From Planctomycetes bacterium GWF2_41_51 (lineage in GTDB: Bacteria > Planctomycetota > Phycisphaerae > Sedimentisphaerales > UBA12454), in the NCBI GenBank assembly GCA_001825665.1, contig MHXZ01000132.1:1-48294 (forward strand): a stretch of 48,294 bases of DNA. The letters run 5' to 3'. The notes under the pieces were generated by a model. It worked only from the letters and a program-made list of their open reading frames with translations. It had not been told where the DNA came from and did no database searches. Positions within the stretch are counted from its first letter, which is position 1, and every line of letters starts with the position of its first letter. The translations under genes and the position numbers were made by a program. Of the stretch, positions 4,726-35,009 are shown in pieces.

Positions 4726-6291
4726 ATGTTTAAAAAATTAATAATTAGTATGATAGCATTATTATTGTGTGCCAATGCTTTCGGAGCATACGAACGTGCG
4801 TTATGGAGCCCAGGAGATGCCCCGACTAATCACACAACAACACCTTTTTTGCAGGATAGTACTGAAGTTCGCATACACGATGTTGATTCTGACACATGGC
4901 GGTATAATATGGGCCCTGCCATCATCGGCCATAGTGGAACCATGCACTGTATATGGAAATCAACACCGGGTGATGAAACATCCACTAATGCAGTAACCAG
5001 ATACTCATATTCAACCAATGACGGTTTTACCTGGTCAACTCCGCAAATTATCGCAAACGACAGCGGTCCCGGTTGGTATGGCCACGGTACTTTATTTGTA
5101 GTCAGCAATATTGTGTACGCTTTGCTTCCTCATGAATACTCCGATTCTTATGATACAGAATTATGGAGATTAAACGGAAGTACATGGTCATTAATCGGCA
5201 AAATACGTGATGATTTCTATCCACAGGAAAATCCCAAATTAATGCCTAACGGTAACTGGATATGCGGCGGTTTCGAAAGACAAGGTACTACAACATACAG
5301 CGCGGTAATAATCAGTCAAGGCAGCAATATAACAAGCACCTGGACATTAAAAAGAATAGATGCCTATCAAAGCAGAGGTTTTGAGACATCAACGTGGATC
5401 GATGGTGCTGAAGTTACTGCTTGCACAAGACAATGGAAAAAAGATGCAGCAGGCGTTTTAAGAATGGGCAGCCTTGTGAGTATAGACTCAGGAAATTCAT
5501 GGAACCCGGGCTATATAATCAATTATCCAGCAAGTAATTTCCCATTTGTTGATGCTCATGTATATGCCGATCATGTATCCAATGGCGAGAGATACCTTGT
5601 TTACAATATGCCGGTGAGCGGTGTTTATAATAATCGAAGAGTCCTGGCAATTGCTTTTGCTGAACCCGGCTCACGAGTGCTTAGCAGTATTTATAAACTT
5701 CGCGACCATGGCGATACAGAGCCGCATTATCCGGGCATAGCAAAAGACCCCGGCTGGATGCAAGCTAATGGGTGTGAGTATAACGGTAACATTTACATTG
5801 TTTATGTGCGGGCAAAAGAAGATGTAGATATGACAATTATACCTGTTGACGACGGCGGCGGTTCGCCTATTTCCGGTGAGCATTATTTGAGATGCAACAA
5901 TGGCAACCAGTACTTACACAATGACGGCAGCACATCCGGCTCAGAAGTGACGACCTATTATTACAGGCCTGATTGGGCCAGCGAAAAATGGAACATCGAA
6001 CACGTTGCCGGTGATGTTTACAGGTTAAAAAGTTTGCGCGGTACCAATCTTTATCTTACTGCGACAGGATCCGGCGCAATGTCGCCAATAGTTGCACAAA
6101 CCTATAATCCAAGTTCTGATTATCAGAAATGGGAATTCGTTCACATGGGCGGCAATGATTACAGGCTGAAAATTGTTTTGGCAAATCAATATATGAATGA
6201 TCAAAGCAACGAAGTTCTTGACGATTTGTTCCTATATCATGACAGACCAACATGGACCAGCCAGATTTGGACGTTAGAAGAAGTGCAATAA
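4726..6291 (+). CDS. Secreted sialidase-fold (BNR/Asp-box) protein with ricin-type domain
   Basis: This protein of 521 residues has a clear signal peptide (MFKKLIISMIALLLCANAFG). Residues about 20-385 form a beta-propeller with Asp-box motifs such as STNDGFTWS and SIDSGNSWN, as in the sialidase/BNR superfamily. I see no FRIP motif, so a true GH33 sialidase is not supported. Residues about 390-521 are a ricin-type trefoil (SEKWNI, YQKWEF, SQIWTL) closely related to that of the preceding gene. The propeller is very similar to the N-terminal part of the protein at 44680-47256, where the trefoil is replaced by LamG and dockerin-like modules. It follows the preceding gene by 81 bases and is closed by the terminator at 6306-6347. 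Confidence 0.75.
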   Translation: MFKKLIISMIALLLCANAFGAYERALWSPGDAPTNHTTTPFLQDSTEVRIHDVDSDTWRYNMGPAIIGHSGTMHCIWKSTPGDETSTNAVTRYSYSTNDGFTWSTPQIIANDSGPGWYGHGTLFVVSNIVYALLPHEYSDSYDTELWRLNGSTWSLIGKIRDDFYPQENPKLMPNGNWICGGFERQGTTTYSAVIISQGSNITSTWTLKRIDAYQSRGFETSTWIDGAEVTACTRQWKKDAAGVLRMGSLVSIDSGNSWNPGYIINYPASNFPFVDAHVYADHVSNGERYLVYNMPVSGVYNNRRVLAIAFAEPGSRVLSSIYKLRDHGDTEPHYPGIAKDPGWMQANGCEYNGNIYIVYVRAKEDVDMTIIPVDDGGGSPISGEHYLRCNNGNQYLHNDGSTSGSEVTTYYYRPDWASEKWNIEHVAGDVYRLKSLRGTNLYLTATGSGAMSPIVAQTYNPSSDYQKWEFVHMGGNDYRLKIVLANQYMNDQSNEVLDDLFLYHDRPTWTSQIWTLEEVQ

Positions 6292-6358: not shown

Positions 6359-8389
6359 CTAAGAATAACTAATTTCTATCATTTGATGACATTGAAGCTT
6401 TGGAAGAACAAATTCTACACAATCCGCCTTTTGGGAAAATTCAAGTTTACTACTTTCAGGAACACATATAACACTCTTTATCTTTTCCGGAATTGATAAA
6501 GAAACTTTCAAATCGTAAAGCGGAAGCAAATCATCAATAACTTCCACGCTTATTGCTTTGCCGGCAACTGTTCCACCGGAAAGATTCATTGAGCCGCCGC
6601 GACTAATCGTATTTGCATAAAGTAAATGCAGAACATAACGGCTTTGTTCTTTCTGTTTCATTAAGGTAACTCTGCCAATCGAAGGCAGGTTAATTTTCAC
6701 TGTCGACTCATTCAACAATAAATTCAGTGCGTTAATTATATACTCTTTATAAGCAACGGCGCCAAAATCACGATAAATTGAAAAGACAGGATGGGCCAAA
6801 TACATAATATTACCATTGTAAACACCGCAATCAAAACCCGATGATTCTGGTTTTGGCGGAGTATGCTGATGACTGCAAAAATGTTCAAAAGTTCTGTTAA
6901 AGTATGGGTCATAAACTTGCCCGAGCGATTTGCCTTTTTCCGCTTTTATTCTCTGACTTGGCAAATACATCACGAGCGGTGAATTTACAAACGATGGACG
7001 AATTTCTTTAGTTGGCAAAATATAATCAGGCTGATAAGGACTCGGCCCTTCATAACTTGCACCGATATCAAACAAAAATATGCTTCCATCGACATTGAGG
7101 CCACTTGTTCCTGTTAAAAATAATTTGCCGCCATTTAAAAGATATTCATCAAGCTTGAGTTTGAGATTATCATTAATAGAAATATTATCCGGCAACACTA
7201 ATAATTTATACTTTGAAAAATCAATTTCTTCGTCAATCACATCGAACAGGAAATGCCCTTCAAGCAGGATTCTTGCTGCACCTGTATCCGGAGCGTCATC
7301 ATGAGTTGCCCTTTGGCGAACGTTATGAACTGCTGAGCTTGAAAGTAATCCAATATCAGCAATGTTTTCAACATTATGGCACCAAGGCTCTTTAGCCTTG
7401 ACCGATTCATAAGCTGATCCAATTATTTTATAGGTGCTGATATCCATTTCGCCAGTCGGATGCAATTGGTCGCCTACGCTGCATTTGGCACCATATGCAA
7501 GCATCGCCGCACATTCATATTTTAACGCATTTGGATATTTGTATCCGCCGAATTCTCCCCATGTTGTATGAAACTTGCCAGTCATCCCCAAAAAGTCGAA
7601 AGGAAGATTCATACAGTATTTTGCCGATACGGGAAAATGATCATAGCCCCAGCCGCCAGTAGGAAGTGATTCCAATTCAAGATGGCTGAAATATTTCAGA
7701 AGCTGGCGATTGCCTCTTTGGATATGTCCGCTGTTGTGGAAAACAGGCATATTGCCCCGAGCATCTTTAGAGGCAGCGGTTGTTTCTTTGTAATAACGCT
7801 CAATGGCAATTTCTGCACACTTTAGCCTATCGGCTTCAACAGCAACATTCAATCCCCTGTCTTTCATTATCGCCATGCACCACTTGCAGCAACATTGTCC
7901 CTGGGCAATGATATCTAAAAATATGCCATCGGCATCAGGAAACAGCCTCACAACTTCTATTATTTGTTCACATAGATAATTAAGATATGGGCTATTAAAG
8001 CACATTAAATGAAAGCCGGGATTCGTAACTTCCGCAGACCAACCAGCATATTGGCCATTAACCTTGATTTCACGCCATTCGGGATGTTCATGTGATGCGA
8101 AATTATCTACGCCTGCTGACAAATAAATTGGAACATTAACATCAATTTCTTTTGCAGCTTCGTATTGTGCATCAAGCAGATTAAAATTAAGATGCGGATG
8201 CTGACTACCAATTTGAGTTGGGTGATAACTCCAGCCGTGATGGCATTTAGAAAAACAAGTAATCGAATTAACATTACCGATTTTTAAAGCCTGCTGGAAT
8301 TTTTGTTTGTCAAACTTTGAACCGATATTGTCGATAGCCTCTGAAGTATGAAAATCAAGGTGTATTTGTCTAAATCTTAGTTTATGCAT
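6359..8389 (-). CDS. GHL6/GH42M-type glycosidase, possible alpha-L-fucosidase, cytoplasmic
   Basis: From the ATG at 8389 the protein has 676 residues and no signal peptide. This start has AAGG seven bases upstream. An earlier ATG at 8407 would overlap the preceding gene but has a poorer site. The N-terminal 350 residues look like a TIM-barrel of the GHL6 type, with DGIFLDII followed by a cysteine cluster (QCCCKWCM). Residues about 365-480 resemble the beta-galactosidase trimerisation domain (GH42M: NIADIGLLSSSAV, KYKLLVLPDN, GGKLFLTG). As I recall, alpha-L-fucosidases of GH151 share this architecture, and the GH95 gene in the same operon makes fucose release plausible, but the substrate is inference. 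It is the last gene of the operon. Confidence 0.7.
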   Translation of the reverse strand: MHKLRFRQIHLDFHTSEAIDNIGSKFDKQKFQQALKIGNVNSITCFSKCHHGWSYHPTQIGSQHPHLNFNLLDAQYEAAKEIDVNVPIYLSAGVDNFASHEHPEWREIKVNGQYAGWSAEVTNPGFHLMCFNSPYLNYLCEQIIEVVRLFPDADGIFLDIIAQGQCCCKWCMAIMKDRGLNVAVEADRLKCAEIAIERYYKETTAASKDARGNMPVFHNSGHIQRGNRQLLKYFSHLELESLPTGGWGYDHFPVSAKYCMNLPFDFLGMTGKFHTTWGEFGGYKYPNALKYECAAMLAYGAKCSVGDQLHPTGEMDISTYKIIGSAYESVKAKEPWCHNVENIADIGLLSSSAVHNVRQRATHDDAPDTGAARILLEGHFLFDVIDEEIDFSKYKLLVLPDNISINDNLKLKLDEYLLNGGKLFLTGTSGLNVDGSIFLFDIGASYEGPSPYQPDYILPTKEIRPSFVNSPLVMYLPSQRIKAEKGKSLGQVYDPYFNRTFEHFCSHQHTPPKPESSGFDCGVYNGNIMYLAHPVFSIYRDFGAVAYKEYIINALNLLLNESTVKINLPSIGRVTLMKQKEQSRYVLHLLYANTISRGGSMNLSGGTVAGKAISVEVIDDLLPLYDLKVSLSIPEKIKSVICVPESSKLEFSQKADCVEFVLPKLQCHQMIEISYS

Positions 8390-8403
8390 GGAGTTACCTT
8401 TTA

Positions 8404-9192
8404 TCATTTAGTAATCATCATCTTATTACTGTCGGAGTACTTAGACGGCAGCATTTTAAACTTTCTGCGAAAATGCTGACTGAACCTTGAAGGATCCTGA
8501 TAGCCAACAGCTTTTGCTATTCTATTTATCGGCCAATTGTTATTTTTTATCAACTGTGCAGCCCTTGTCATTCTCAAATGCTGAATATACTCTATAAAAC
8601 TCATTCCATAGGCATTTTTAAAAAGCCTTACCAAATGGCACGGACTAACTTTGGCAATATTTCGTGCGACATATTGTAATCTTATTGTATCATTCAGATT
8701 TAAAGCAATATACGAAACCGCTTTATCGAGGGGTGCACCATTTAAGTTCGCCCCCCTATCGCAATTGGTGATTCGATGCTGGATGCCAGCAAAATATATC
8801 TCCACAGATATTCGAGCTTCTTCAATTTTCCCCTCGCAGATATTATCGACTATGTTCCTATGCCCTTCACATAATATATCCAAATCCGGCCAATAATCCT
8901 GCAAAGTTTTATTAAAAATAATGTGCTGCTTTTGGAAAGTTGTTTCCCAAATTTCAAGCAATTCAGGAATTTGAGCAAATTGGATTATATTCTTATGCAA
9001 TCCTAATTCTGATAGAGCAAAATTTTCATAATCATATTTTCTGGCGAGCTGCAACATTGAATCAAATGCCATAAGAATCAGCGTCGGATCTGTTCCTAAA
9101 GACACTCTTTGGGCGGCTTTACTTGCAGCAAAACCTTCTATCACACTCAAAAGTTCACTTATACTTTTAGCTGAGTTGATTAATGAAAGCAT
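8404..9192 (-). CDS. Hybrid regulator: FCD-like sensor domain fused to AraC-type DNA-binding domain
   Basis: The protein has 262 residues. Residues about 10-140 are all-helical and match the FCD (FadR C-terminal) ligand domain of GntR regulators: FALSELGLHKNI, then EGHRNIVDNICEGKIEEAR. Of the usual metal ligands, H66 and H111 are kept, the Asp is Glu62, and the last His position appears to be Tyr133. The N-terminal winged helix of a GntR protein is absent. Residues about 153-250 instead form a typical AraC/XylS double helix-turn-helix (LQYVARNIAKVSPCHLVRLF; INRIAKAVGYQDPSRFSQHF). It probably senses a sugar acid or carboxylate and activates nearby genes. The start has no strong ribosome site but lies 12 bases after the previous gene's stop, suggesting translational coupling. 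Confidence 0.8.
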   Translation of the reverse strand: MLSLINSAKSISELLSVIEGFAASKAAQRVSLGTDPTLILMAFDSMLQLARKYDYENFALSELGLHKNIIQFAQIPELLEIWETTFQKQHIIFNKTLQDYWPDLDILCEGHRNIVDNICEGKIEEARISVEIYFAGIQHRITNCDRGANLNGAPLDKAVSYIALNLNDTIRLQYVARNIAKVSPCHLVRLFKNAYGMSFIEYIQHLRMTRAAQLIKNNNWPINRIAKAVGYQDPSRFSQHFRRKFKMLPSKYSDSNKMMITK

Positions 9193-9204: not shown

Positions 9205-10329
9205 TTATTCTAAACCACATACTTTTTTCAGTTTTTCAACAAAATACAAAAAATTCTTATAACTCACATCGTGCGGCAGACCATGATCAAACCAGGGAAC
9301 ATAGCCACCCTTTGCTATTGCCTTGCCAAGTTTTTCGATTTCTCTATCAATAGCATCCGGCCCATGGGCTAATGCTTTTTTGTCAACGCCGCCAAACATC
9401 AACATCCTGGGGTATTTATCTCTGTAAACGGCGACATCCATACCACATTGAACTTCCATAGGAACAACACCATCTATCCCAGCCTCAAGCCAAATTGGAA
9501 TGACCTCATCTATGTAGCCATCACTGTCAAGAATGATGAAAGGCACACCAACTTCACGGAGTTTCTTAACCATAATCTTATATCGAGGCAGCATAAACTG
9601 TCTCATTTGAGGAGCGCCGAGTAAGGTTGATGTTTTATAGCCTATATCTTCCCACAGACAAATCACATCCGGGACAAAATTGGCAAATAACACTTCGACA
9701 CTTTTACAAAACAGTTCTACCACTGTGTCCATCATATCTTCAATCATGGCAGGATCATCATAGAATGCATAAGATAAAGGCTCAACACCCATCATATCTC
9801 TAAGAGAACCATAAAGACTTCCTGCTGCACCAAGAAAAATCACAAGTGGTAAATCGCGGTCGAGCCATTGTTTTTTCTGGTTTTCCCAATCCTGGCCAAT
9901 TCTGTTATCATCCCATTTTAGAAGTTTTTTATATTCTTGCCAATCGCTCCGGCTGGTAACGGGGAATTTTTCAAAATGAGGCATCGACAGATACGCATCT
10001 TTCTTAAACTCGGTACATATAATGCCATACTTGTTGACATAAGTCTCAGATGTATCAGTTTCCTTTAGAACCTTTCTTTCAAATTCAGGATAAGTAAATA
10101 ATTTAGCGTCAGGTATAGCCCACAAGTGCCTTTCAAGCCCCAAATAATCAATTAATCCGGGAATATTGCCTATGAATTCTTTTGGCATGCCTTCTGAAGC
10201 CCAACGCTGGAAAGTGCTTCTCCATATACCGCCAAGAGTAGCAAGCGTGCGCCCGGGCGATTCAAAACGCATAACGGAATAGAACAAGTCACGTTTATTC
10301 ATTTGCTTTATATTTTTTGTGCTTTGCAT
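9205..10329 (-). CDS. Uroporphyrinogen decarboxylase-like (URO-D superfamily) protein
   Basis: From the ATG at 10329 (AAGGA ten bases upstream) the product is 374 residues. An earlier in-frame start at 10392 would overlap GH95 and has no supporting site. The protein is a URO-D/MtaA superfamily TIM barrel: MNKRDLFYSVMRFESPGRTL at the start, FLGAAGSLYGSLRDMMG, VICLWEDIGYKTSTLL and the C-terminal KGGYVPWFDHGLPHDVS. Where corrinoid methyltransferases carry a His-x-Cys-Gly zinc motif, this protein has LDSDGYID, so a zinc-thiol methyltransferase role is not supported. Heme synthesis is also unlikely in a glycosidase operon. The role is unknown; it is probably a cytoplasmic enzyme in sugar catabolism. 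It starts 19 bases after GH95. Confidence 0.75.
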   Translation of the reverse strand: MQSTKNIKQMNKRDLFYSVMRFESPGRTLATLGGIWRSTFQRWASEGMPKEFIGNIPGLIDYLGLERHLWAIPDAKLFTYPEFERKVLKETDTSETYVNKYGIICTEFKKDAYLSMPHFEKFPVTSRSDWQEYKKLLKWDDNRIGQDWENQKKQWLDRDLPLVIFLGAAGSLYGSLRDMMGVEPLSYAFYDDPAMIEDMMDTVVELFCKSVEVLFANFVPDVICLWEDIGYKTSTLLGAPQMRQFMLPRYKIMVKKLREVGVPFIILDSDGYIDEVIPIWLEAGIDGVVPMEVQCGMDVAVYRDKYPRMLMFGGVDKKALAHGPDAIDREIEKLGKAIAKGGYVPWFDHGLPHDVSYKNFLYFVEKLKKVCGLE

Positions 10330-10348
10330 CTTTAAATTTTCCTTATAA

Positions 10349-12718
10349 TTAAATTGATTTGACAAGCTTATAGGTTTTACCCGCGAGGCCATTCCACATA
10401 ATTATTTTATGTTCCGATGCGAAAATCTGTCCATCTGAACTTACAGTCACAGGCATTTGCTCCCAAGGATTAAGAACTTTCAATGGGCCATTACATTCGG
10501 GAGTAACTTTTATATACTTAACTTCGCTGCCATCGTGTTCGGCCTCTACAAGAACCGCTCCCGGTACCCGTAAATCCTTAAAACTTGCTTTTCTTCCTTT
10601 GGCTACCGCAGGAAAACAACGAATAACATCATCCGCGGTTCTTTGAACAAGCATCTCCTGTATGGCAGCGCCTGCACCAAAAAGAGCTTCAATCTGGAAT
10701 ATGGGGCCGGCATCTGAACATTCATCATAGAGACTATTGGGGTCATCGCCATCAATGTGAATTTTACTAATACTGCTAAGCAGACCTTTAAACATATATC
10801 TGTCATAGAGGTGCAAAAGGCAATTTTCGGCAATTTCTGACATTCCAAGATTTGCAGCGATACAAGCCTGGTACGACCAAGACCAGCCGCAAAAACCTTG
10901 CTGCCCATATCTGCGATGAAACTCCAGAAAAGATCTTTTTGCGAACTCAAATTCCTTTGTATCACTGTGCAAACCCAACAACTTAGCAGGAAAAATCGCC
11001 ATCAATCTGCTCGGATGTCTATGTGATTGAGGAATCCAGCCTGCACGTTTGCCATCATGGAAAAAAGCTTCTTCGTAATCTATTAGGAAACCATCAAGCG
11101 ACGGTAAAGAAGGAAGATTTGCTTTAATATCCTTACATTTTTCTATCAATTCATCTTTTTGCTCGAGAATATCTGCCGCTTTACAGACATAATCAAATAG
11201 TGCCGTTATAGAAGCAATATCAATTGCAGAATTACGACCAAATAACTGATAGTATTCACCGTCATCTTCAAACCAATATTGCTCTGGGGAATGTGTCAAT
11301 TCAATATTATATTGGCCGCGGGAATCCTTAATCAATATATCAATGTACAATTGAGCGCAACCGCGAAGGAACGGATAAACTTTTTCACTTAATAATTTTT
11401 TGTCCTGTGTATATAGATATTGCCACCATACATGCTGAGATGTCCATGCAGTTACTGAAGTTTCTAATGCTAATGGAATGCCGGCTATCGGCCTTCCTGA
11501 CCAATCTGCATTAAAAGGAACCGCCAAACCATCTGATTCAAAATTATCACGAGCATATTTTTTGAGAATGTCTTTCCAATCATCAGTCAATTTTTTTACC
11601 AAGGCTGCCTGTAATTCAGGATGATTAGCTTTGCAGGGCATCCATTGGCATTCCTGAACGTTCGTATTAAAATGATAATCCGCATGCCATGGAGATATCT
11701 CATCCTGTACCCATATACCCTGAAGATTTGGCGAAGATTTATCAGCTCTTGTAGAACTTGCCATTGCATAAAGAGCCATTGTCCATAATTTTTCGATGCT
11801 TTTACATTCATGGCTAATGGTTGACTTGCTCCAGAAATTATCCCACCACCGATAATGGTTTTGTTTAATCGTCTCAATGCCAACTTTTTGAACACGGTCC
11901 ATTAACTTATCAGCTTGCGTTTCAAACAAATCAACCTTCGATTCATAAGAAGAGATAGCTCCTATGAGAATGCAGACCTTTCCAAGTTCTCCACCAAATT
12001 TTACATATCCATTAATGCCGAAGTCATTTGCTGAAATATCAGATTTGCCGCCAACCACTTTAACGCACACGGCATAAGCAACATTTTCTGGCAGCAAATG
12101 CCGCATAATTCCTAAATTTTTAGAACATCCAACAGAGTAAGATGGGGGATCGATATATTCGCTGTTAAATCTCTTATATGATATATCTATAACCTGCGTC
12201 GTCTGACTATCAAGCTCAGCAATAAGAACATTTTCACCATCTGGAATAAAAAAATCAGCTTGAAGAGGTTTATACTCAATCGCCCAATTTGCTGCGCGCG
12301 GAGTTGGTTCTACATTTACTAAAATTTCCGCTTTTTCAAAAGACAATTGCTGCTTAAATGATACAGGCTGAACCTTATTCATTAAATTCAATTCAAGCTG
12401 TCCGCATGATATTTGCTGCTGACCATATCTATAAGGATTGTTTTTGTTAAGCTCCCAACCTTTTTTTCGAAAGCTGATATCACCTTCCATTGCCATTTTG
12501 CGAACTTCAGGATATGTGCGTTTCCAATAGGTACCATCTTTGTCAGGATGTCGAAGATCGTTTACATCATGCTTGGAAAAACCTATTTTTAAAGAATCAG
12601 GAGTCCCCCAAACAATTGCACCCAGGTCTCCATTGCCTAAGATATGGCCTTCTGTCCAATGAAGCGCAGGAGAATGTAAAGTGTGAACTTTAACGGGAGG
12701 ATTGACCGATTTGGTCAT
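10349..12718 (-). CDS. GH95-family glycosidase (alpha-L-fucosidase / alpha-L-galactosidase type)
   Basis: The 789-residue length is usual for GH95. The N-terminal beta-sandwich has the family start (ALHWTEGHILGNGDLGAIVW). The helical barrel holds NLQGIW (331-336) and DYHFNTNVQ, with N351 and N353 matching the paired catalytic Asn residues of characterised GH95 enzymes. HSPEQYW carries E479 at the likely general-acid position. There is no signal peptide, so it acts on imported oligosaccharides. GGAG lies nine bases before the ATG. It is the third gene of the operon, 24 bases after the upstream secreted protein. GH95 members act on alpha-1,2-L-fucose or L-galactose; which one applies here is not decided by sequence. 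Confidence 0.88.
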   Translation of the reverse strand: MTKSVNPPVKVHTLHSPALHWTEGHILGNGDLGAIVWGTPDSLKIGFSKHDVNDLRHPDKDGTYWKRTYPEVRKMAMEGDISFRKKGWELNKNNPYRYGQQQISCGQLELNLMNKVQPVSFKQQLSFEKAEILVNVEPTPRAANWAIEYKPLQADFFIPDGENVLIAELDSQTTQVIDISYKRFNSEYIDPPSYSVGCSKNLGIMRHLLPENVAYAVCVKVVGGKSDISANDFGINGYVKFGGELGKVCILIGAISSYESKVDLFETQADKLMDRVQKVGIETIKQNHYRWWDNFWSKSTISHECKSIEKLWTMALYAMASSTRADKSSPNLQGIWVQDEISPWHADYHFNTNVQECQWMPCKANHPELQAALVKKLTDDWKDILKKYARDNFESDGLAVPFNADWSGRPIAGIPLALETSVTAWTSQHVWWQYLYTQDKKLLSEKVYPFLRGCAQLYIDILIKDSRGQYNIELTHSPEQYWFEDDGEYYQLFGRNSAIDIASITALFDYVCKAADILEQKDELIEKCKDIKANLPSLPSLDGFLIDYEEAFFHDGKRAGWIPQSHRHPSRLMAIFPAKLLGLHSDTKEFEFAKRSFLEFHRRYGQQGFCGWSWSYQACIAANLGMSEIAENCLLHLYDRYMFKGLLSSISKIHIDGDDPNSLYDECSDAGPIFQIEALFGAGAAIQEMLVQRTADDVIRCFPAVAKGRKASFKDLRVPGAVLVEAEHDGSEVKYIKVTPECNGPLKVLNPWEQMPVTVSSDGQIFASEHKIIMWNGLAGKTYKLVKSI

Positions 12719-12742: not shown

Positions 12743-15676
12743 TCAGTTCTTGTTCAAATAAAAACCTTCGGGAAAATTACCCGCTCGGTCAAAAGCTTTC
12801 AATAAAACTTCATCCATCATTAATTGACGTGCTTTAATAATAAGCCCAGCTTGCAAAGAGTTTTCAGCTTTTTCGAGTAACATCAAAGCTTCTTTATTAC
12901 TATCGACATCAATTTGCAATATTTTAATTCCTTCTGCAATCTGTTTTTTAATATCAACTAAATCAGTTTCATCAATAGAAGTTTTAATACCTGATACTCT
13001 GCCGCTGACAATTTTAAAAACCATCAATTCATAAGGCTCAAGTGAGATATTATTAACATCTAATTCCTGTTTCTTTACTACGGCATTAACTTTTAGATCA
13101 TTACCAATCAGTTTAACAGATATAGGCAGATGGCATCTATTTACAATATATCCATATTCCGAACCAACCCATAAAGCAACCGGATCAGAACCTCCAATAT
13201 TCTTATAATCAGTTTTTGGCAAAGCTTTGTACTGCCTGATAAATTCACGAAACATCTCAGGCTGGCCCTGTGTATAACCAAGTCCGCCATCAAACATAAT
13301 GTCCTGCGGCCCGGCAGCCAAAGCCTCGCAATATCGACTAAGATAATGTCTGCCGGCAGGTACCACAATCGCGCAAACGCGGACTTTTTCTTTTTTTGTG
13401 ACTTCCTTTAAATTGAACCATTTAAGCGGAATGTCCGCTTCCATATATTCATTATAATGTCCTATCGCATTAAGCTCTCCGCTAACCTGATTTGGTAATA
13501 ACGTCAATTTCGGTGAGTATTTTGGCATTATATTAAGAGGGTCATATTCACGACGACCAAATGGATATCTTCTGGAATCGATAAAAACCAGGCCTTCAAT
13601 ATTGGAAAAAGCATCAGGATACATAACGCCATAAATGTCCGGGGTTTCGAAGAAATTAATATATAATTTCAGATCACTTCGCACGAGACGTACATCCCCT
13701 ACTAATCTTTTGTAAAATCTTGCAAGCGAAATACTTCTCCACCGCTGCCATGAAGACCATTGATTATTTTTCAGCCATTCATATCTTTTTGCAAATCTAT
13801 CTTCTCCCTGGAATTCAGGGACTTGAGTCTTAAGTTCTTTTTCATATTTTTTTATACTGTAATCATCAAAGCCTGATGTATAGCCATTAAAAAATATCCA
13901 GCCGCTCATCTGCCAATCCATCCAGCGAAGCGATACTCCCTTCAAAGCGGTCGAATCAGCACATGTTCGAGCAACTTCAACAACGAGTTTACTTGCCCAT
14001 TCCTGCACAGCAGGATGCAAAGGATTCAACAACTGCTGGCCTTTGGTGTCTCTGGTGTAAATATCCTGACCATTTGCCAAATCCTTAATTGATTCCTGCA
14101 AACCCCTCGGTGAAGGCTGTAATTCAGGAACATACGACAGACCATTCTTTTCTGCTGTCAAAAGCATTATCCTCATCGGTGGGCTTGTGTAATTCTCTAT
14201 GGCAGCTTGGCCCCTTTTTCTATTTCCATCTAGAACATCAGAAGCCCAGGTTGCCTGACCATATACTGTCGCAGTATCCCATATCGTATCGACACCCACA
14301 TGCCTGCACCATTTAGCATATTTATCAGCAGCATTCACCGTTTCAGTAAGGCTATTATCTTTAGCTCCATAATAAATCATCCAACGCATAGGCTCTTCGT
14401 AATAAAAACCCATTGAACGAGTAGTTTCGCTTAACTTAAATTCATCAAGCTCACCTTCTAATTCATATATTCTTATCCTGGATACCGTTGCCCGAAGCCC
14501 TTTTTGCCATGTCAAGAAAAACAGCATAAAATCATTTTGACGTGGAACAATATGCATAGCATAGGTCTGCATTTTATTCGATAAAGGATATTCTCCGCCG
14601 CAAACAATGCCACCATCTATAGGATGAGGCAAATCTTCTGTAAATTCATATTGGTCAAAAAAGCTTACTGTGAATGTTCTTAAATTGTCATCCGGATAAT
14701 CAATTTCCAGCCTGTACCATGACCCAGGTTTTTTAATATTGATATTGTACGCAAACCAGCTTGGATTAGCTCTGTTGATATATAAACCGGAATCGCCGGA
14801 TTCTATATATTCCCCTGCGATACTGCTTTGTTTACGTATCCCATCTGGAGATTGCAACTCTGGCAGGATTTCCCGACAATCAATCTCTTCGGTTAGTATC
14901 CATTTAGCTTCTTTTTCTGACATCAACGGTTTATTATCCGTGTCAATACCATAAACAGTTAAAGGTGCTGCAGCGTACTTATCATTAACTTTAAACAAAA
15001 CTTCGGCTTTGCCCTCAAAGTCGATGGGAATCGAAATCTTTTTTTCAAACCAATTGCCTTTACTCTTAACATTTATCACTTCTATGATTTTAATTTTGCC
15101 TTCGATGTTACATAAAACGTCAAGTCTGTAATTTTCAACATTTAGTGGTTCGGCTGTAATCTTAACTTTTAACACATCACCTTTTTTCCAATAAGCCTGA
15201 TGATTTTCAAATTTTACTATAACCCTGCTTTTTGGATTTTCGGTTCTAACAATCTTAACTGATTTTACCCACGCAATTCCGGGGTGCCAATCTCTAAAAA
15301 TCTTAAGTTTGTTAACACCTTGATTAAATTTTACATTGCACACCTTGTAAAAATCTTTTTCATTACCTAACTTTGTATTTTTTACCGGCGTTTCAATAAC
15401 CAATGCATCATTTATATAATATTTTTGTTCCCAATCCGGAGCTTTAGTTTCGATCCATAATTCATAAATCCCCTCCTGCACAGCTTCAAATTCCCACTCA
15501 ACCCATCCATTGCCACGTATAAATCCTTTTTCTTTTATTCCTGCCAAGTCATTATCAGTTAATTCTAATTTGTCGATATCAGAAAGGCCGAGATTAATCA
15601 CCGAATCAGTCGCGGCAAGAACCTGAATAGATAAAATTGAAAAAATTAAAATTAAAATCCTTGCAGAAATGGTCAT
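12743..15676 (-). CDS. Large secreted protein with TIM-barrel-like core, unassigned glycosidase candidate
   Basis: A 977-residue protein with a signal peptide (hydrophobic 6-20, VLAA). Residues about 25-145 look like a jelly-roll carbohydrate-binding module (GNGWVEWEFEAVQEGIYELW). About 150-245 is an Ig-like strand region. About 265-405 and 410-870 match the central part of the 1682-residue protein at 16995-22043. The core has alternating strand/helix character and conserved stretches LNPLHPAVQEWASKLV, KGVSLRWMDW and FDDYSIKKYEKEL. The C-terminus is a helical region (about 905-965). I cannot name a CAZy family. Its ATG overlaps the lacI stop by four bases (ATGA) with GGAGAAG inside the lacI end, so it is translationally coupled to the regulator. 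Confidence 0.7.
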   Translation of the reverse strand: MTISARILILIFSILSIQVLAATDSVINLGLSDIDKLELTDNDLAGIKEKGFIRGNGWVEWEFEAVQEGIYELWIETKAPDWEQKYYINDALVIETPVKNTKLGNEKDFYKVCNVKFNQGVNKLKIFRDWHPGIAWVKSVKIVRTENPKSRVIVKFENHQAYWKKGDVLKVKITAEPLNVENYRLDVLCNIEGKIKIIEVINVKSKGNWFEKKISIPIDFEGKAEVLFKVNDKYAAAPLTVYGIDTDNKPLMSEKEAKWILTEEIDCREILPELQSPDGIRKQSSIAGEYIESGDSGLYINRANPSWFAYNINIKKPGSWYRLEIDYPDDNLRTFTVSFFDQYEFTEDLPHPIDGGIVCGGEYPLSNKMQTYAMHIVPRQNDFMLFFLTWQKGLRATVSRIRIYELEGELDEFKLSETTRSMGFYYEEPMRWMIYYGAKDNSLTETVNAADKYAKWCRHVGVDTIWDTATVYGQATWASDVLDGNRKRGQAAIENYTSPPMRIMLLTAEKNGLSYVPELQPSPRGLQESIKDLANGQDIYTRDTKGQQLLNPLHPAVQEWASKLVVEVARTCADSTALKGVSLRWMDWQMSGWIFFNGYTSGFDDYSIKKYEKELKTQVPEFQGEDRFAKRYEWLKNNQWSSWQRWRSISLARFYKRLVGDVRLVRSDLKLYINFFETPDIYGVMYPDAFSNIEGLVFIDSRRYPFGRREYDPLNIMPKYSPKLTLLPNQVSGELNAIGHYNEYMEADIPLKWFNLKEVTKKEKVRVCAIVVPAGRHYLSRYCEALAAGPQDIMFDGGLGYTQGQPEMFREFIRQYKALPKTDYKNIGGSDPVALWVGSEYGYIVNRCHLPISVKLIGNDLKVNAVVKKQELDVNNISLEPYELMVFKIVSGRVSGIKTSIDETDLVDIKKQIAEGIKILQIDVDSNKEALMLLEKAENSLQAGLIIKARQLMMDEVLLKAFDRAGNFPEGFYLNKN

Positions 15677-16716
15677 TTTTTAACTTCTCCCAATGTAGCC
15701 CCGTTGACAAAATGAGTATCGACCGATTTCATCGGTTCAAGAACCTCTTTGCCTAAAGTTAATGATTTTAACATATTCATAGCTTCTGTAACCATCGATT
15801 TGAAATCCTGCTCAACTGTGGCCAGTTTAGGATAATTTTGCTGAGCAATCCATGCTGAACCCCAGCTGACTACACTTAAATCCTCTGGAATTTTCATTCC
15901 AAGTTCGGTCGCTGCAAACACAACTGCTCTTGCAATCAAAATACCATGACAAATTACAGCAGTAGGCCTTTCCTGTGCTGTCAAGATGCTGCGTGCCCAT
16001 TTAATACTTTCTTCGGATTGAACACTGCCATAATCCAATACATCATGACCAAAAATACGAATCCACGAATCATGATTAATATCAACAATGCCTGAACGAA
16101 CAGCATTTTGAAAACCGCCCATTGCTTTTCGATGAAGCAAGTATCGCTGGGGACCACCGGCATAAGCAATCCTTCTATGTCCTAAAGCAACCAATCTGTT
16201 TATAGCATCAACAATGCCGGCTTCTGCATTAGTTATCACGCAATATCTCGAAGGTTCATCGATAGATACACAGGGATAATTATTCCATTCTTCCAATTGG
16301 CTTCGCAGTTTATCGCCAACATCTCCTACGATAATCGATCCATCAACGAGACTTGAAGTCATTTGCTGAGGAAGTATCTCATCTTCTCCCTCGCGATGAA
16401 TATCGACCATATATTGTGTGCTATTCTCATTGCAGGCTTCAACAAAACAAGCGAGAATCGGGGCATTAAAGTCCATCGACAGCGCCGCCTGAGCATTTCT
16501 TCCGTTTAATATGCATCCAATTCTGTCTGTCTTCATCGAACGCAAAATCTGTCCGGCTGCATGAGGATGATAGTTTAATTCCTTGGCGATTCGCCTGATT
16601 TCGTCAGCTTTTTCAGTGCTTATTTGAGAAGAACCGCTCATCGCCATAGATACAGCAGCGCGCGAAACGCCTGCTCTTTTTGCAACATCCACGGAAGTAA
16701 CTCGTTTCACAGCCAT
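15673..16716 (-). CDS. LacI-family transcriptional repressor
   Basis: The 347-residue length is normal for the family. The N-terminal helix-turn-helix reads TSVDVAKRAGVSRAAVSMAM, followed by the hinge region HPHAAGQILRSMKTDRIG. The rest is the periplasmic-binding-protein-like sugar sensor (GHRRIAYAGGPQRYLL, PTAVICHGILIARAV, PEDLSVVSWGSAW, LATVEQDF). AAGGTGG precedes the ATG by four bases. It heads the six-gene operon and faces the divergent gene at 16995. Both promoters carry a shared near-palindrome (16738-16753 and 16908-16923) at the expected transcription start, suggesting it represses itself, its operon and the large secreted protein until a sugar ligand appears. Confidence 0.92.
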   Translation of the reverse strand: MAVKRVTSVDVAKRAGVSRAAVSMAMSGSSQISTEKADEIRRIAKELNYHPHAAGQILRSMKTDRIGCILNGRNAQAALSMDFNAPILACFVEACNENSTQYMVDIHREGEDEILPQQMTSSLVDGSIIVGDVGDKLRSQLEEWNNYPCVSIDEPSRYCVITNAEAGIVDAINRLVALGHRRIAYAGGPQRYLLHRKAMGGFQNAVRSGIVDINHDSWIRIFGHDVLDYGSVQSEESIKWARSILTAQERPTAVICHGILIARAVVFAATELGMKIPEDLSVVSWGSAWIAQQNYPKLATVEQDFKSMVTEAMNMLKSLTLGKEVLEPMKSVDTHFVNGATLGEVKK

Positions 16717-16737
16717 AATTCCACCTTACCGAATCTA

Positions 16738-16753
16738 ATTTACACGTATAAGT
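16738..16753. promoter_or_regulatory. Candidate LacI operator O1
   Basis: ATTTACACGTATAAGT is a near-palindrome centred on ACGT and shares its core with the site at 16908-16923. It overlaps the -10 end of the lacI promoter, consistent with autorepression. LacI-family operators are typically 14-20 bp palindromes with a central CG. Confidence 0.65.
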
Positions 16754-16780
16754 TTAACATATATAGAATCTGCAAGTCAA
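16751..16780 (-). promoter_or_regulatory. Promoter of the lacI operon
   Basis: On the minus strand TTGACT (16775-16780) and TAAACT (16751-16756) are 18 bases apart; TTAAAC one base over gives a 17-base spacer. The candidate operator overlaps the downstream edge of the -10 box. Confidence 0.55.
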
Positions 16781-16878
16781 GCCATTTCATTCCGCACAAT
16801 AAACATCTCTTTATGTATTGCGACATAACATATTACAATCTAAATACTTATAAAAAAATAAAATAAATCGTAAATTTC

Positions 16879-16906
16879 TTGCACTTATAAACAAATATGT
16901 TAAAAT
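16879..16906 (+). promoter_or_regulatory. Promoter of the 1682-residue secreted protein
   Basis: TTGCAC (16879-16884) and TAAAAT (16901-16906) are 16 bases apart. The operator at 16908-16923 covers the expected start of transcription, leaving a leader of about 80 bases before the ATG at 16995. Confidence 0.55.
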
Positions 16907-16907
16907 C

Positions 16908-16923
16908 ACTTACACGTGTTAGT
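16908..16923. promoter_or_regulatory. Candidate LacI operator O2
   Basis: ACTTACACGTGTTAGT is palindromic except for one T/T pair, with a perfect ACACGTGT core. It lies immediately after the -10 box of the rightward promoter, the mirror image of O1 at the divergent promoter. Confidence 0.7.
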
Positions 16924-16994
16924 AATCTGTTTTTATATTTATGTTTTTATTTTGATTATGAAACAATGTTAGAATATTAGAGAGAAAAGAAAAC

Positions 16995-34157: not shown

Positions 34158-35009
34158 TTATTTTTTACGGCGCACTAATATCAATGAACCAATACCAAAT
34201 AAAGCCATCGTTGCTGGTTCTGGAATAGCTGTAACAGTAATGTCATCAACCGCCATTGTATAGTTGGCAGGCTGACTATTTAGGGAACCATAGAACGTTA
34301 TCCCGGCCCAGCTTAATGTAGTGATATCGATAATCCCTGTTGAAACAACCTGTACCTGATCCGGATTGGCATAACTCTTATCCGCTAAATTTCCGCCGGT
34401 ATGCCACATCGTCAATGTAACATTGCCGCCGGCAATTGCCTGTTCAATCCTCAGATTGAGAGTTAACCAAAGCGGCGCATTGTCTGTGTTGACACTCGCT
34501 ACATCAACTAAGGTGGTCATACTTTCGCTTCCGCCAACTGTTCCAGTTGTCCATGCAGTCGTACTACCGGACCGCTTGTAAGACGACGCTTTCTGATTAC
34601 GGCCGCCTGTCTGCCTGTCAGCTTTGATACCATAGCCGTTCATTGTGCCATCACTAAGCCACACATAAGCGGAATTGTAGTATGGTGTCATATAGACATC
34701 ATAAGACAAGTCGATTGCCGTAACGCCTGTTAGATTTTGGCCATGCAGTTTTCCGGCAGGCCCCCATGCTGCATTAGATGCTCCCGAATCAAGACGCTCA
34801 TAAACTGTGTTGCCTGCACTTTGAGAAACCATCACACGCTGAGCGTCACGAATCCACCAACCGTTTGTGGCAGCGCCAGTACCACTAAGAGTGCCAGGAG
34901 TTGTTCCTTCCGTTGAAATTGCCCAGCCCTCCTCAAAATCTTCAACAAACACCGCAAAGGCCGCCGGCGTCATTGCAAGGACTAACAATAATAATACTAC
35001 TTTCTTCAT
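34158..35009 (-). CDS. PEP-CTERM-sorted protein with one beta-sandwich (NGWWIRDA) domain
   Basis: A 283-residue protein with GGAGGAA before the ATG, a signal peptide (to about AAFA) and a full PEP-CTERM tail: IPEPATMALFGIGSLILVRR. This means export followed by exosortase-type anchoring or processing. The body (about 22-262) is one copy of a beta-sandwich module seen six times in this window, with NGWWIRDAQ, YVWLSDGTMNGYGIK, LTMWHTGGNLADKSYANPD and WAGITFYGSL. The module looks like a carbohydrate-binding domain, but its ligand is unknown. It follows the pseudopilin gene and precedes a terminator. Confidence 0.82.
   Translation of the reverse strand: MKKVVLLLLVLAMTPAAFAVFVEDFEEGWAISTEGTTPGTLSGTGAATNGWWIRDAQRVMVSQSAGNTVYERLDSGASNAAWGPAGKLHGQNLTGVTAIDLSYDVYMTPYYNSAYVWLSDGTMNGYGIKADRQTGGRNQKASSYKRSGSTTAWTTGTVGGSESMTTLVDVASVNTDNAPLWLTLNLRIEQAIAGGNVTLTMWHTGGNLADKSYANPDQVQVVSTGIIDITTLSWAGITFYGSLNSQPANYTMAVDDITVTAIPEPATMALFGIGSLILVRRKK

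Follow-up and report, generated by a model that had tools for sequence, protein, structure and literature searches.

FCD sensor domains joined to AraC-type DNA-binding domains: a regulator family of Planctomycetota and Verrucomicrobiota and its divergent member in a glycosidase operon

Related Regulators

FCD domains ordinarily follow a GntR winged helix, and the metal-ligand set Asp-His-His-His (D/H/H/H) is common among them, although not universal. DgoR from E. coli, a member of the GntR/FadR subfamily (PDB accession 7C7E), shares with the proteins described here an FCD domain with a metal and arginine pocket but differs in its N-terminal winged helix, its action as a repressor, and the lack of an AraC domain. 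The metal of DgoR is held by only three residues, D146, H150, and H195, which together with R102 and R224 affect the binding of D-galactonate (PMC7674646). The sialic acid regulator NanR from the same subfamily shows the same FCD fold, and its sialic-acid-type regulon is comparable to the BNR_2 and DHDPS gene context of the FCD-AraC homologues, but NanR carries a winged-helix DNA-binding domain and has another operator. Regulators of the AraC/XylS type, such as AraC, AdpA, and MarA, share the C-terminal double helix-turn-helix (HTH) and the N-terminal sensor. Most AraC proteins activate, and their sites on DNA are directional; to our knowledge, their usual sensor domains are not FCD. In the main text of a survey of transcription-factor companion domains, FCD does not appear (PMC5882156).

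Domain Architecture

The window, which is the whole stretch of 48,294 nucleotides that was analyzed, encodes a regulator (the window copy) (Table 1) that consists of an FCD domain and an AraC-type double HTH and in which the GntR winged helix is missing. Pfam places FCD (PF07729) at residues 11 to 127, with 33.4 bits against a cut-off of 24.3, and HTH_18 at residues 179 to 253, with 79.3 bits, and gives no match to a GntR HTH in this protein. The window copy thereby combines the FCD profile with the C-terminal double HTH typical of AraC/XylS regulators and lacks the N-terminal winged helix before the FCD domain that characterizes the GntR/FadR subfamily. The start codon ATG at position 9192 is preceded by an in-frame TGA with one codon between them, as read from the open reading frame (ORF), and the upstream gene ends at position 9205, leaving a gap of 12 bp. 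The winged helix is therefore truly absent and not lost through misannotation.

The AlphaFold2 (AF2) model of the window copy, built with an input of 20 aligned sequences, reaches a pLDDT of 92 and a pTM of 0.85. In a comparison with the PDB, residues 1 to 150 resemble the FCD domains of PdhR (Z 20.2), DhdR (Z 19.7), DgoR (Z 16.8), and NanR (Z 16.3), and residues 152 to 262 resemble the AraC DNA-binding domains of AdpA (Z 17.0) and AraT (Z 16.8), with both halves aligned to their counterparts over nearly their whole lengths. Among the chains listed, none spans both halves as FCD plus AraC. The original prediction had described this pairing and the missing winged helix and had proposed a profile search and a structure prediction as checks; both bear it out, and the N-terminal half does not fall to another helical fold.

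Table 1. Coordinates of the fusion regulator, its domains, and its operon in the window
Feature	Coordinates	Strand	Evidence or remark
FCD-AraC fusion regulator (window copy), 262 aa	8404..9192	-	ORF; Pfam FCD and HTH_18; AF2/PDB folds
FCD sensor domain, aa 1-145	8758..9192	-	Pfam, AF2/PDB fold, alignments
AraC-type double HTH DNA-binding domain, aa 152-262	8407..8739	-	Pfam HTH_18, AF2/PDB fold
GHL6 / Glyco_hydro_42M hydrolase-like protein, overlaps regulator by 4 bp	6359..8407	-	
URO-D superfamily protein, 12 bp upstream of regulator	9205..10392	-	
GH95-type glycoside hydrolase	10349..12718	-	
GHL10-like hydrolase (below Pfam cut-off), same operon layout	12743..15676	-	
LacI-family regulator, first gene of co-directional run	15673..16716	-	
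Probable operon promoter region	16717..16994	.	Weak motif match, 10.3 bits at 16785, empirical p 0.09

Distribution and Phylogeny

Surveying the domain pair in other genomes, as had been suggested, yields the same fusion at ∼30 homologous loci in Planctomycetota and Verrucomicrobiota, so that the fusion in the window is neither a chance event nor an assembly error; it is real and sparse in these two phyla. A search of the phylum with the single protein gives three full-length homologues in Planctomycetota, and a single-sequence scan of GTDB contigs with the window protein gives no match. The alignment-based scan of GTDB contigs finds 22 loci, 21 of them with FCD-AraC architecture and all from Planctomycetota or Verrucomicrobiota, using patterns derived from planctomycete members, so that members in other phyla may be missed. 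Model searches place the fusion in at least 10 of 392 Planctomycetota genomes, at least 5 of 289 Verrucomicrobiota genomes, and at least 2 of 298 genomes of the class of the window; within the window copy's own family, it is present in 1 of 13 genomes. The best 30 FCD loci of Bacillota carry no AraC domain in the same frame, the plasmids searched contain no match covering 80% of the query, and among the further genes of the window's own genome that were found to match AraC or FCD, none is such a fusion. A literature search, with domain databases such as InterPro outside its scope, retrieved no published description of an FCD-AraC fusion; the pair is thus not well documented in the literature searched, and the family is, as far as checked, previously undescribed.

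With FCD and AraC in one frame and similarity over the full length, the window copy belongs to this PVC FCD-AraC family, scoring 355 bits against a family model that includes the window sequence itself and sharing 30 to 38% identity with other members. A second, more distant clade (L137, L138, L139, and L144), counted apart from the main clade, shares the domain pair and the ligand set with it and has no DHDPS neighbors. In one genome (G069; L018/L047/L103), the FCD-AraC ORF is interrupted by an in-frame TGA at the codon of the invariant Trp82, whereas the frame is open in the sister genome G048; this TGA is either a nonsense mutation or a sequence error.

Gene Neighborhood

At 22 of the 29 main-clade homologue loci, a gene of the DHDPS family (PF00701) is situated upstream in divergent orientation, no farther than 7 kb away; the same is true of a BNR_2 gene at 26, and at least one of the two is found in this arrangement at all 29, which include some closely related genomes and are not independent events. 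An SBF-type transporter gene is also present at 15 of these loci. Within 1.5 kb, DHDPS and/or BNR_2 genes occur at 24 of 29 main-clade loci, compared to 1 of 57 FCD-less AraC ORFs. With no more than 5 to 9 DHDPS genes in each of the genomes checked, chance proximity to the FCD-AraC gene is unlikely. Both BNR_2 and DHDPS are broad families; the adjoining lyases mostly retain the GxTGE and Lys motif and comprise at least two sequence types, and none of the three lyases examined reaches a specific NCBIfam cut-off. Elsewhere in the window's own genome, an ordinary GntR-FCD regulator has a DHDPS gene and an ORF that by eye is YhcH/NanQ-like in its vicinity (G000:C125, ∼48 to 62 kb; L014 and L146), forming a conventional sugar-acid cluster.

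The window copy is the fifth of six co-directional genes, in the order LacI, GHL10-like, GH95, URO-D, FCD-AraC, and GHL6, in which neighboring genes overlap or lie no more than 24 bp apart, in agreement with the glycosidase operon that had been proposed. The divergent DHDPS or BNR_2 partner present at all main-clade homologue loci is absent here: no DHDPS gene is found within 7 kb, and a BNR_2 gene (4726-6291, + strand) lies on the downstream side.

Candidate Operator

A motif resembling CGATTTCGCATA is located upstream of the homologue regulators, nearly always in one orientation. Most Verrucomicrobiota show two copies 111 to 113 bp apart, at ∼22 and ∼134 bp upstream of the start codon. The dyad GATT-N3-CATA is present in 10 of the 19 representatives, compared to a maximum of 4 in 20 shuffles. 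A matrix built from Verrucomicrobiota only scores 9.3 to 16.3 in all 10 Planctomycetota promoters tested, with per-locus empirical p values of 0 to 0.02, against a 95% quantile of 5.5 in a control of 65 upstream regions. The 14-mer GCGAATTCACATAG is found once each in four of six planctomycete genomes (the four measuring 6.9 to 7.8 Mb), every time at the FCD-AraC promoter, and is absent from the genome of the window copy. The 12-mer YGATTTSGCATA gives 16 matches in eight genomes, 10 of which lie at the FCD-AraC promoter according to their coordinates, with 1 match for the reversed control. As the patterns were taken from these promoters, their presence there is by construction, and the informative parts are the scarcity elsewhere and the cross-phylum hold-out.

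These CGATTTCGCATA-type sites are candidate operators that the FCD-AraC protein may bind. A role of the motif as a promoter element for the regulator's own gene is less likely, because the second copy, ∼110 bp upstream, adjoins the divergent gene. In an operator scan of the window, no match near the operon beats chance, the best one there being that listed in Table 1.

Effector Pocket and Divergence of the Window Copy

At the four metal-ligand positions, the window copy contains E62, H66, H111, and Y133, exactly as first described, compared to D, H, H, and H in the alignment of all 28 main-clade homologues and all 4 members of the second clade. Position 15 is Arg in 27 of the 28 main-clade homologues, with one gap, and Leu in the window copy; 27 of the 28 likewise have Arg at position 140, which the window copy retains as R140. 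W82 is also kept, and Q138 replaces an otherwise invariant Trp. DgoR is the closest FCD protein in the PDB by profile, and in our reading of the profile alignment, R15 corresponds to DgoR R102 and R140 to DgoR R224. As judged from the alignment, the remodeled pocket is specific to the window copy among the main-clade members compared, and the original prediction is right that the ligand chemistry may be altered, with L15 present in addition to E62 and Y133. In the tree, the window copy joins the planctomycete branch, its exact place being unsure, with an end branch of 2.6, the longest in the main clade. It retains 17 of the 24 conserved columns in the FCD domain, compared to 19 of 25 to 23 of 23 in the other members tested, and has lost 6 of 33 conserved columns of the DNA-binding domain.

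One tentative reading, to which we give slightly less than an even chance, is a switch of ligand: E62, H66, and H111, with or without Y133, would still hold a metal, and the pocket would read an intermediate of the GH95/URO-D/GHL6 operon. This refines the best explanation for the window copy and is not an exclusive rival to it. The substitutions gather in the pocket and the last helix (positions 127, 130, 133, 136, and 138), the operon context is new, and the three-ligand precedent of DgoR (PMC7674646) implies that a missing fourth ligand need not abolish metal binding.

We regard it as unlikely that the window copy is decaying or ligand-independent, with the FCD domain as a dimerization scaffold only and a constitutive AraC half. 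The long branch, the lost FCD (7 of 24) and DNA-binding columns, the loss of the partner locus, and the presence in 1 of only 13 genomes of its taxonomic family would fit such decay, but the frame is intact over 262 codons and tightly packed in the operon, the AF2 model is confident, and H66, H111, R140, and W82 are kept. That the protein is an ordinary AraC regulator whose helical N terminus is unrelated to FCD and resembles it by chance would suit the modest FCD score of the window copy but is rejected as extremely improbable, given that this score exceeds the Pfam cut-off, that Z values of 16 to 20 to many FCD structures span 125 to 145 residues, and that the homologues reach 3e-16 against FCD at best and conserve the D/H/H/H ligands.

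Proposed Mechanism

The joint explanation that we favor, with somewhat better than even confidence, is an FCD-sensing AraC-type regulator of adjacent sugar- or 2-oxo-acid genes, with the window member re-deployed and its pocket remodeled. The family probably consists of locally acting FCD-sensing AraC-type regulators of 2-oxo- and sugar-acid catabolism. Each member would act as a one-component regulator: the FCD effector domain at its N terminus takes the place of the usual AraC sensor and controls the C-terminal double HTH. We infer that the family pocket holds a metal on D62, H66, H111, and H133 and a carboxylate on R15 and R140; its ligand is probably a sugar acid or 2-oxo acid. When occupied, the pocket would control how the AraC domain acts at the directional CGATTTCGCATA-type sites, which lie in the divergent promoter separating the regulator from the cluster of DHDPS lyase, SBF transporter, and BNR_2. 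Activation is the more likely direction by analogy, because most AraC proteins activate.

The sugar-acid ligand proposed at the outset thus gains support for the family, through the adjoining DHDPS-type lyases and the conserved D/H/H/H together with the DgoR-like R15 and R140. No such support extends to the window copy, which has lost R15, D62, H133, and the lyase neighborhood. Since the window copy lacks the DHDPS neighbor, a clear operator, and these three pocket residues, the mechanism proposed for the family may not apply to it. In our best reading, it is a fast-evolving member that lost its partner locus and was re-deployed in a glycosidase operon, and it probably helps regulate this LacI-headed operon. 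A more specific version, which may or may not hold and which we rate just under the halfway mark, treats these regulators as a distinct family: AraC-type activators driven by an FCD sensor that recognizes sugar acids and depends on metal, with an operator of their own that spans both phyla. In this version, the window copy would have evolved either a different ligand or a mode that needs no metal.

The family illustrates the transfer of a GntR-type effector domain onto an AraC DNA-binding domain, retained in two phyla. Little is known of polysaccharide regulation in these bacteria, and the family offers a sensor, an operator, and a target cluster that can be put to the test; the window copy would be a natural case of pocket remodeling after a change of gene context. 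Elsewhere in the window, inspection by eye indicates a protein ending in a PEP-CTERM-like sorting signal (34158-35009, - strand) and an integrase/transposase-like ORF near the contig edge (501-1268, - strand).
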